Shown piece after piece: positions 49,391 to 51,209 of a stretch of DNA of 55,303 nt (within the stretch, counting starts at the first letter, position 1; every line of letters starts with the position of its first letter). This DNA is from a bacterium MS4. Its GTDB lineage: Bacteria > Bacillota > Clostridia > Oscillospirales > Acutalibacteraceae. A program made the position numbers and the translations under genes. The notes under the pieces were generated by a model. It saw only the letters and a program-made list of their open reading frames with translations. It searched no databases and had not been told where the DNA came from. The DNA is taken from positions 1 through 55,303 of the forward strand of contig CCFG01000013.1 in assembly GCA_000752215.1 (NCBI GenBank). The letters run 5' to 3'.

Positions 49391-50413
49391 TCAGGGACTC
49401 GGCTTTTGCAGGAAATCCCTGATCTTTTCAGCCCGCAGGCTGCGCCGCTCCGCAGGAGTGAGCTTTTTTCCGCTGTAAAACGTCAGCGTAGCGGGCTGGA
49501 CCAGAACCATCAGGCGGTTGATTTCTCCGTAATCGATCGGGTCAATCAAGCCCGCGGCCACACCGAACCGGACGTTGGAGATCAGCTGCATGAATTCCTC
49601 GTTCGCCATCATCTTCGCACTTTGCAAAATGGCAAGGGAACGGCTGACGGTATCCTGAATTTCAAGGCTTTCCGCCAGTTCTTTTCTGGCGGCACGTTCC
49701 TGTTCGATCAGCTGCATGGCAATGCTTTGAAGATTCGCAATCGCTTCCTGCTCCGACAGCCCGAAGGTAACGTGGTTGGACAACTGGTACACAGCGCCCT
49801 TCGGCTCCACCCCGGACCCAAAAGTACCGCGCAGCGCAAGACGAAGCTTACTGAGATTCGAGGAAATCCGGGAAATTCCCCCGCCTTCCCGCAGCGCGGG
49901 AAGATGCAGCGTCAGAGACGCGCGCATCCCCGTCCCGAGGTTGACGGGATTCTGTGTCAGATATCCCAGATTTTCATCAAAAGCGAAACCGAGGCATTTA
50001 TCCAGAATGTCGTCGAGGCTATCCGCCGCGGCGAACGCTTTTTGCGGATTCAGCCCCACTTCCGAGGACTGAAGATGAATGTGGTCCTCTTCATTGACCA
50101 TGATGCTGACCGTTTCATCCGCGTTTACAAAGAAACCTCTTCCGCGGCGGTCCGATATGAAATCCGCGCTGACAAGATGGCGTTCCACCAGAGAAACCGC
50201 CTCCACCCTGGACAGGCTCTCCATGTCCGTGAATTGAAAAAGGTGGGACAGGGCCTCATTGCCGCTGAAAGCCTCCGCCACTCTTTCGGAAAGCTTCTGC
50301 CGGTCGGCACGGCTCATTTTCGCGCAGAAGGGGACGTCCGTCAGATTGCGGATAAGATGAATTTGCGTACGGATCACAACGTCCTCTTCGCAGCCGGGAT
50401 TCGGGCTATTCAT
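49391..50413 (-). CDS. mcsB: McsB-family guanidino kinase homologue, active site degenerate
   Basis: McsB normally phosphorylates protein arginines, marking proteins for ClpCP. The 340-residue homologue keeps the fold, shown by VNEEDH at 106-111, NLGTGMRASLTLHLPAL at 158-174 and VYQLSNHVTFG. Many family catalytic residues are changed: the SxRxR block reads TQIHL (Gln17, His19), the arginine after NEEDH is His113, the cysteine of GYLTxCP is Asn155, and the glutamate in the RGxxGE loop is Ser200. Arg164, Arg195 and Glu109 remain. I read it as a probable pseudokinase. The ATG ending at 50413 overlaps mcsA by 8 bases; starting at an earlier in-frame ATG would extend into mcsA. No ctsR or clpC is adjacent. 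Confidence 0.9.
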   Translation of the reverse strand: MNSPNPGCEEDVVIRTQIHLIRNLTDVPFCAKMSRADRQKLSERVAEAFSGNEALSHLFQFTDMESLSRVEAVSLVERHLVSADFISDRRGRGFFVNADETVSIMVNEEDHIHLQSSEVGLNPQKAFAAADSLDDILDKCLGFAFDENLGYLTQNPVNLGTGMRASLTLHLPALREGGGISRISSNLSKLRLALRGTFGSGVEPKGAVYQLSNHVTFGLSEQEAIANLQSIAMQLIEQERAARKELAESLEIQDTVSRSLAILQSAKMMANEEFMQLISNVRFGVAAGLIDPIDYGEINRLMVLVQPATLTFYSGKKLTPAERRSLRAEKIRDFLQKPSP

Positions 50414-50900
50414 GGGCCTTCCCTCCTTCCAGTTCTTTGATTCGGTCGCGCAGGCTGGCGGCATGTTCAAAGTTTTCGGCGTCGATTGCCTCCCGCAGCT
50501 CCCGGCGCATCAGGCTGAGCTGCTCCTGCGGCCTGCTCTGAAGAGCGCCGCCGCCCGGAACCTTTCCGCGGTGCCTGGTATTGCCGTGGATACGCTGAAT
50601 CAGAGGGATCAGCCGGTCGTAAAAGGTATGATAGCATTGCGCACAGCCGACCTGCCCGCTGCGCATGATATCGTCAAAGGTCGCCCCACAGCACTTGCAG
50701 CGGACCGGGTCGTCCAATTCGGCCCCGCCGAAGAAGCCGCCCAGCAGGCTGCCGTAATCGCAGCCCAGCCCGGTCAGAAGATTTCCATACCCCAATCTCT
50801 GCGCACATTCGGCGCAGAGGGAATATTCCGTCAGTTCCCCGTTGATGATGGTTTTAATATGAGTGGTAACAGGATTTTTTCCGCAGGAATCGCACAGCAT
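50406..50900 (-). CDS. mcsA: McsA-type zinc-finger/UVR protein
   Basis: McsA activates McsB and binds zinc. The 164-residue protein has two CxxC pairs at the start, CDSCGKN and CAECAQRLG, and two more in CKCCGATFDDIMRSGQVGC with the following AQCYHTFYD, giving two zinc sites. Its C-terminal UVR motif RRELREAIDAENFEHAASLR is typical of UvrB-like interaction domains. All zinc cysteines are intact, unlike the active site of its McsB partner. The ATG ends at 50900. It lies first in the unit; usually ctsR precedes it and clpC follows mcsB, but here neither is present. Confidence 0.93.
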   Translation of the reverse strand: MLCDSCGKNPVTTHIKTIINGELTEYSLCAECAQRLGYGNLLTGLGCDYGSLLGGFFGGAELDDPVRCKCCGATFDDIMRSGQVGCAQCYHTFYDRLIPLIQRIHGNTRHRGKVPGGGALQSRPQEQLSLMRRELREAIDAENFEHAASLRDRIKELEGGKAHE

Positions 50901-50999: not shown

Positions 51000-51068
51000 G
51001 AAAAATTTGTAACACGTTTTGTTCCTATGCAATATTATATACTGTAAACCGAAAGGAGGCAAACAATT

Positions 51069-51209
51069 ATGTGTAACAACAATTTCTTTGGTGGTGGTGG
51101 CAGCTGCTGTTGGATTATCATCCTTGTCATTATCCTTTTAGTATGCTGCGGCGGTGATAACGATTGCGGTGGTTGCGGCAATTGCAACAATGGATGTGGC
51201 GGCTGCTAA
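51069..51209 (+). CDS. 46-residue Cys/Gly-rich membrane peptide
   Basis: A 46-residue peptide: an N-terminal Asn/Gly stretch (MCNNNFFGGGGSCC), one membrane helix (residues about 15-25, WIIILVIILLV), then a Cys/Gly/Asn-rich tail (CCGGDNDCGGCGNCNNGCGG with a final Cys). Ten cysteines in 46 residues are remarkable. AAAGGAGG lies 9 bases before the ATG, a near-ideal ribosome site, and a bidirectional terminator follows, so it is very probably expressed. Similar short Gly/Cys-rich peptides are annotated as high-cysteine or spore-coat-like in Clostridia. I cannot assign a function. Confidence 0.8.
   Translation: MCNNNFFGGGGSCCWIIILVIILLVCCGGDNDCGGCGNCNNGCGGC

Follow-up and report, generated by a model that had tools for sequence, protein, structure and literature searches.

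McsB is known as a protein-arginine kinase from Bacillus subtilis, Geobacillus and Staphylococcus aureus, with structures 6fh1, 6tv6, 8gqd and 8wtb. ClpC is described as the reader of phosphoarginine and CtsR as the classical client, and one residue sets the selectivity of YwlE apart from that of tyrosine phosphatases (PMC5506225). In S. aureus McsB, Cys157 was reported to be catalytically essential and the second zinc finger of McsA binds the McsB loop Y147–Y153, beside the catalytic Cys (PMC12467219). In arginine kinase, Glu225, Glu314 and Cys271 were called essential by a computational study (PMC11075012). The adaptor role of B. subtilis McsB is reported to need its kinase activity, and the two activities are said to be hard to separate (PMC5506225). 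McsA is a zinc protein, described in B. subtilis as a partner that responds to redox state. Under thiol stress, oxidised McsA releases McsB in this organism and McsB strips CtsR from DNA without a role of its kinase activity (PMC5506225).

Here we analyzed a McsB homologue of the genus Caproiciproducens (family Acutalibacteraceae), which is encoded in a window of 55,303 nucleotides, by which we mean the whole stretch of DNA that was analyzed. We compared it with the described kinases, with its relatives in the family and with the other parts of the arginine phosphorylation system in their genomes.

The mcsA-mcsB locus of the window

The mcsB frame opens with an ATG at 50413, is free of frameshifts and is full length, and its start overlaps the end of mcsA (Table 1). 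The PF00217 domain, the McsB dimer domain and the adjoining mcsA are all present, which makes the protein a McsB homologue by descent. In a phmmer search its residues 7–336 align with Geobacillus McsB (E 5e-66), followed by the McsB proteins of B. subtilis (3e-64) and S. aureus (3e-50). The cut-offs of all five NCBIfam McsB models that it matches are missed (scores against cut-offs of 357.3/385, 307.1/500, 214.1/471, 198.0/679 and 189.0/381), and McsA, with 130.5 bits, also stays under the cut-off of 210 of its NCBIfam model. McsB is the sole PF00217 protein of the 3.74 Mb genome, and an active second McsB was ruled out by this search.

Table 1. Position and basis of the features of the mcsA-mcsB locus in the window
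Feature	Coordinates	Strand	Basis
Putative mcsB-derived pseudokinase gene, 340 aa	49391..50413	-	PF00217, 199.6 bits (cut-off 22.4)
SxRxR motif, codons 17-19, with Gln17 and His19	50357..50365	-	Alignment to McsB structures and 80 loci
NEEDHxR Arg to His, codon 113	50075..50077	-	Alignment; genus: His 8/10, Gln 2/10
Active-site Cys to Asn, codon 155	49949..49951	-	Alignment; genus: Asn 7, Ser 2, Asp 1
Lid-loop catalytic Glu to Ser, codon 200	49814..49816	-	Alignment; genus: Ser 4, Ala 3, Thr, Pro and Lys 1 each
RDxxRA Asp to Arg, codon 324	49442..49444	-	Asp in 139/144 intact McsB; Arg in 9/10 genus members
Predicted McsA-docking loop FDENLGY, residues 145-151 (S. aureus Y147-Y153)	49961..49981	-	Register counted from the alignment
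mcsA, encoding two zinc fingers and a UVR motif	50406..50900	-	NCBIfam McsA as best match; UVR PF02151
McsA zinc finger 2 (Cys68, 71, 86, 89)	50634..50699	-	Four Cys in 22/22 clade and 28/28 other degenerate neighbours
Gene that follows mcsB, for a TPR-like protein of 224 aa	48657..49331	-	Weak TPR_2 Pfam match and AF2 model
Sigma-70-like promoter (TTGCCT-17-TATAAT), upstream of mcsA	51034..51062	-	Consensus match only

By inspection of the locus, neither a ctsR gene before nor a clpC gene after the pair was found. CtsR operators were scored as a direct repeat, at a spacing which we assume. The repeat unit, RGTCAAA, was taken from PMC12634643, and no match to this operator was found in the window at up to 1 mismatch. 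Hence none of the three marks of a CtsR-controlled clpC operon (ctsR, clpC and the CtsR operator) was found at this locus.

Active-site residues in the window protein and in the family

Aligned motif by motif to the McsB proteins of Geobacillus, B. subtilis and S. aureus, the window protein has RTQIH, NEEDHIH, TQNP, FGSG and RRSLRA where the references have SSRIR, NEEDHIR, TSCP, YGEG and RDIRRA; in their wider context, GYLTQNP stands for GYLTxCP and RGTFGS for RGxYGE. The five substitutions of the original prediction (Gln17, His19, His113, Asn155 and Ser200) are therefore correctly placed, and misalignment of the catalytic motifs was ruled out by the conserved residues that flank them. The same alignment bears out that the second NEED glutamate, Glu109, and two phosphate-binding arginines, Arg164 and Arg195, are still present. 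This leaves one of the two catalytic glutamates and two of the five ATP-phosphate arginines; the set of five, and the match of our residues to arginine kinase numbers via shared motifs, are our assumption. A sixth change, the Arg324 that replaces the Asp of RDxxRA, had been missed, and we take this Asp to be part of the McsB phosphoarginine pocket. That the overall fold remains, as was also predicted, agrees with the AF2 model (pLDDT 90.3; TM 0.90 to McsB 6fh3), in which the lid residues 199–202 have a pLDDT below 50. The dimer contacts are partly kept: the R262–E277 pair is present, F261 is Ser and R271 is Lys (S. aureus numbering, by eye).

Among the best 80 of 592 named relatives, 78 retain all eight key residues. 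The two exceptions are C. galactitolivorans (L002), with the same kinds of change, and L074, in which only the Cys is changed, to Trp. As the named relatives are nearly all intact and the same-genus L002 is likewise altered, the changes in the window protein do not result from chance or sequencing error. The C. galactitolivorans protein, also from Acutalibacteraceae, is 67% identical to the window McsB and its key residues are those of G003. McsB was found in 10 of the 11 Caproiciproducens genomes examined, the eleventh (G005) being 64% complete, and each of the ten has one PF00217 protein. None of the ten has the Cys, the lid Glu or the NEEDHxR Arg, and the two SxRxR arginines are lost in six and eight of them respectively; with the same state across ten genomes, a sequencing error or frameshift was ruled out. 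The variety of residues that took the place of the Cys (Asn, Ser or Asp) and of the lid Glu (Ser, Ala, Thr, Pro or Lys) is what is expected once the chemistry is no longer selected.

For the family, McsB was taken from 201 of the 255 genomes with a match (250 of 300 sampled and five further genus members), and four partial proteins were dropped. This gave 197 full-length proteins from 112 genera, of which 144 have all eight key residues. We call a McsB degenerate when Glu109, Cys155 or Glu200 is changed; 50 of the 197 (26 genera) lack at least one of these, and in 36 of the 50 (18 genera) both Cys155 and Glu200 are gone. Three proteins are altered at other key residues only; G049, G251 and G088, with the Cys and both Glu kept, are not classed as degenerate. 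The sample was not random, as weaker matches were taken mainly one per genus and about 54 matched genomes were left out, so that 50/197 is a rough share, or at least 50/255.

A tree was built from 141 family proteins and six outgroup rows with the eight key columns excluded, by a quick search without bootstrap. The active-site state changes on it at least 14 times, 11 times when the six long-branch lineages are not counted (g56, g60, g77, g83, g108 and the degenerate g132; the tree warns of long-branch joins) and 13 times with L138–L143 left out of the tree. Parsimony alone cannot separate gain from loss, though loss is the sensible direction. Caproiciproducens belongs to a clade of seven genera and 22 genomes in which every McsB is degenerate (SH-aLRT 89). 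The window McsB represents a clade-wide state, one of many parallel losses, rather than a single odd gene. Elsewhere in the family, L244 (G279, g101) has seven of the eight key residues, with only the Cys changed, to Tyr, and ctsR, clpC and a YwlE-type enzyme are still there; it looks like an early stage of loss.

McsA, CtsR, ClpC, YwlE and the TPR-like neighbour

McsA adjoins McsB in all 22 clade loci, in all 28 other degenerate loci and in all 144 intact loci. The window McsA keeps all eight of its zinc cysteines, as had been noted from the sequence. Within zinc finger 2 or directly behind it, another eight conserved residues do not vary across the clade, and this finger is kept even where finger 1 is lost (both g127 genomes) or where the C-terminal UVR part is lost (two g103 genomes). 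On the side of McsB, the conserved columns 144, 150, 152 and 153 of the docking-loop region are retained in 100% of the genus. Adjacency and the conserved contact surfaces support, indirectly, that McsA and McsB would bind each other in the window organism. Of the proposal that the protein may bind McsA or phosphoarginine, this half is strengthened and the other half fares badly (see below).

Whole-genome searches, mostly of drafts, found CtsR in none of the 22 clade genomes, and ClpC also in none (G006 is fragmented, with a Clp piece only). The best Clp matches in the clade are ClpB and a ClpE-like protein; the latter (L218) was named by its architecture, as it begins with a zinc finger and has no Clp_N domain among its best 25 Pfam matches. 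Among genomes with intact McsB, 26 of the 27 searched gave a CtsR (the exception is G050) and 17 of 17 gave a ClpC (in G229 as pieces at a contig end). Among the other degenerate genomes, CtsR is present in 19/28 and ClpC in 23/28 (shortened in G210 and G184, cut by a contig end in G170), so outside the clade of 22 a degenerate McsB often coexists with both. The CtsR operator matches at 12 or more of 14 positions ahead of ctsR for 114 of 131 intact loci. Ahead of mcsA it reaches at most 10 of 14 in the 20 clade loci (of 22) that were scored, which is the level of shuffled sequence. These losses are consistent with one another, since phosphoarginine is read by ClpC, whose classical client is CtsR.

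Two further observations concern these genes. L257 (G050, g41) has an intact McsB, mcsA and a YwlE-type enzyme, no CtsR was found in its genome and its ClpC lies on another contig, which indicates that operon loss can precede active-site loss. In G210:C41 (L264) and G184:C44 (L217), two different lineages, the ClpC that adjoins a degenerate McsB is short of about 45 residues (between positions 420 and 466 of the query), presumably at the place of the middle domain.

For the phosphatase, we take the residue that sets the selectivity of YwlE to be the fifth P-loop position, Thr, and the YwlE type was scored as the P-loop C-x-G-N-T-C-R. Genome searches found it in all 37 intact-McsB genomes searched, in none of the 22 clade genomes and in two of the 28 other degenerate genomes (G110 and G279, both g101), that is in 2/50 degenerate genomes overall. 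Instead, the window genome carries a CHGNICRS enzyme and an arsenate-reductase-type relative with CVHNSCRS. No loop of the Thr type was found in G049, G251 and G088, which have lost key residues other than the Cys and the two Glu, and it is present in G026 despite the lack of a McsB match (1 of 12 such genomes searched). Among phylogenetically independent pairs that compare YwlE with the state of McsB, five are well supported, about four agree and none disagrees (median p 0.125), which is suggestive of a link between YwlE loss and McsB degeneration across independent pairs and is not proof of it.

Degraded YwlE-like P-loops, CTENKARS and CSENQSRS, were also seen alongside degenerate McsB in G141 (L232) and G293 (L231), and both g43 genomes have YwlE-like frames with another residue in place of the nucleophile Cys (GTGDTCRS in G052 and TAGDVCRG in G170; L399, L407). 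G019, without a McsB match, has a similarly degraded frame (L237). G052 and G170 were scored as lacking YwlE because the Cys is replaced, as was G196, which has a C-terminal phosphatase piece only (CHGNICRS-like). Writer and eraser seem to decay together. In several intact genomes (L352, L358, L360, L361, L365 and others) the YwlE-type frame has about 290–320 residues, twice the usual length, and may be fused to a second domain.

The gene that follows mcsB encodes a TPR-like protein whose only Pfam match, TPR_2, is weak (E 0.013). From a 2-row alignment, AF2 models it as a helical solenoid (pLDDT 86.8), and its best PDB matches are TPR proteins (E 1e-4). The gene adjoins mcsB in 20 of the 22 clade loci and by whole-genome search it was found in 13/15 clade genomes, 2/11 other degenerate, 2/16 intact and 0/3 without a McsB match. 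It is absent from the 144 intact loci, which means little since most of these end inside or just past clpC. In the intact G254 (L409) the order is ctsR-mcsA-mcsB-clpC-tpr, with tpr directly after clpC; the idea of a newly recruited partner was dropped for this reason, and tpr is probably an old operon member.

On the other side of the locus, a 46-residue Cys/Gly-rich peptide (MCNNNFFGGGGSCCWIIILVIILLVCC...) is encoded at 51069–51209 (+), divergent from mcsA, with one hydrophobic stretch and a good ribosome site; a Pfam search of it gave no match. Similar peptides are seen in 9/10 genus loci and 17/22 clade loci (several of the others have short flanks), also in L003 and L006, and they are absent in L102 and L409.

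Together with the parallel absence of a YwlE-type phosphatase, ClpC and CtsR, the residue changes strongly support the predicted loss of function: the McsB of the window genome would be a pseudokinase that is unable to transfer phosphate to arginine.

A possible kinase-independent role of the McsA-McsB pair

One of the questions raised by these data is why the pair is kept. The explanation that we judge fairly likely is that the McsB pseudokinase serves as an McsA-bound, non-catalytic scaffold or binding module, freed from arginine phosphorylation. The catalytic residues are lost, eraser, reader and regulator were not found and yet the pair is under selection, so it probably has a second job that does not depend on kinase activity. 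In the ancestry that Caproiciproducens shares with six related genera, ctsR and clpC would have dropped out of the ctsR-mcsA-mcsB-clpC-tpr operon, the genomes would have lost a YwlE-type arginine phosphatase, and McsB its Cys, its lid Glu and arginines of the ATP-phosphate set. McsA was retained, and so were the fold of McsB, its loop for McsA docking and a large part of its conserved framework. McsA would dock on McsB via zinc finger 2 and control what McsB holds. A redox-controlled holding of a partner protein is plausible as the surviving function, given the kinase-independent activity of B. subtilis McsB; as CtsR was not found in the clade, the partner would have to be another protein. As partner we would guess at the TPR protein encoded alongside the pair, or else at the ClpE-like unfoldase that is still present. 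ClpE is the weaker candidate, since it is described as autonomous, working without adaptors (PMC13125188). We infer a scaffold or adaptor role for the pair; as the adaptor role in B. subtilis is reported to need kinase activity, an adaptor that does without it would represent a new mode of action.

If nothing but the overlap with mcsA and a shared transcript kept the gene, mcsB would be a decaying pseudogene. The drift of the catalytic residues would fit this, as would the 50 of 300 sampled family genomes without a McsB match (some of them incomplete). However, mcsB is under purifying selection. Its frame is full length in all ten genus members and all 22 clade genomes, and dN/dS in eight genus pairs is 0.077–0.131 (six of the eight with dS of 0.93 to 1.5, near saturation), inside the range of active relatives (0.026–0.133 in the six computable intact pairs; 4/10 were saturated and gave no value); for mcsA the genus pairs give 0.043–0.121. 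Four TPR pairs at about 0.08–0.09 identity were ignored as an artefact of reading past a stop. Most conserved columns beyond the active site are kept: within the genus the eight key columns are retained at a mean of 0.40, compared with 0.84 in a set of 62 further conserved columns (p 0.0013). A pseudogene is therefore improbable. A re-tooled pocket, which would bind another ligand (a metal or a nucleotide) via His19, His111 and His113, whether or not new chemistry came with it, is suggested by the two changed arginines being His in eight of ten genus members, beside the invariant His111 and Glu109. Across the clade this pattern is not general (His19 in 8/22, His113 in 9/22), the Cys and Glu sites vary, and no clade-wide new catalytic signature appears at the thresholds used, with only L194 and E223 as clade-typical new residues, so we regard this explanation as unlikely.

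The remaining alternatives keep the protein within phosphoarginine signaling. Glu109, Arg164 and Arg195 are still there, so some nucleotide binding may persist, and the protein could tolerate the substitutions and retain a weak or atypical arginine kinase activity; against this, three of the five phosphate-binding arginines, the Cys and one of the two catalytic Glu are gone together, two Glu and a Cys were called essential in arginine kinase (PMC11075012), and a YwlE-type phosphatase, ClpC and CtsR were not found, which makes activity very unlikely. The known phosphoarginine-bound structure of McsB (6fh3) would allow for a phosphoarginine reader, as the second half of the original proposal had it. 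Binding is disfavoured by the Asp-to-Arg change of RDxxRA in nine of ten genus members, by the lack of another PF00217 protein in the window genome to make phosphoarginine and by the lack of a ClpC reader in the searches, and we consider such a reader highly improbable. Pseudokinases often regulate active paralogues, and a dominant-negative subunit that inhibits or regulates another McsB might be imagined on this ground; with a sole PF00217 protein in the window genome, and only one in each of the ten genus genomes with a match, it is scarcely conceivable unless a gene is missing from the assemblies.

Returning to the scaffold, a wider reading is that McsA and McsB share an old function which does not depend on the kinase and which sufficed to preserve them when arginine phosphorylation was abandoned, repeatedly, in Acutalibacteraceae; we see the arguments for and against it as evenly balanced. 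The catalysis of the writer, the eraser, the reader and the regulator would then have been lost in differing combinations, and the Caproiciproducens clade would be the end point, with a stand-alone mcsA-mcsB, mostly with tpr. Nature has apparently split the kinase and adaptor roles in whole genera, where the pair persists and a working active site, the phosphatase, ClpC and CtsR are all missing. If this is true, the arginine kinase has a structural or sensory role as well, and its second function could be sought in these species in a clean setting. The data also warn against annotating each PF00217 protein beside mcsA as an arginine kinase, since this name does not fit about one in four of the full-length family proteins examined (50/197, in a non-random sample).

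Bacterial Ser/Thr pseudokinases have likewise lost catalysis and kept their fold, which is unrelated to that of McsB. The window protein has the corresponding sequence features: a kept fold, catalytic residues lost clade-wide and purifying selection. Among the matches listed in an open-access literature search, no report of McsB pseudokinases was found, and in the available part of a 2025 review on bacterial pseudokinase families McsB appears only in the reference list (PMC12599244). Arginine kinase, creatine kinase and other phosphagen (guanidino) kinases share the PF00217 catalytic-domain fold with the window McsB; unlike them, it lacks the catalytic residues and no role with a free guanidino substrate is expected. 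The closest system remains the McsB protein-arginine kinase itself. The phosphotransferase and dimerisation domains, the mcsA-mcsB order, the McsA-docking loop, the NEEDH motif, Arg164 and Arg195 are common to both, whereas the window protein lacks the catalytic Cys, the lid Glu and the SxRxR and NEEDHxR arginines, has Arg for the Asp of RDxxRA, misses the NCBIfam McsB cut-offs and comes from a genome in which ctsR, clpC and a YwlE-type phosphatase were not found. Judged by sequence, it is a protein that descends from McsB and has lost the features that define a protein-arginine kinase.
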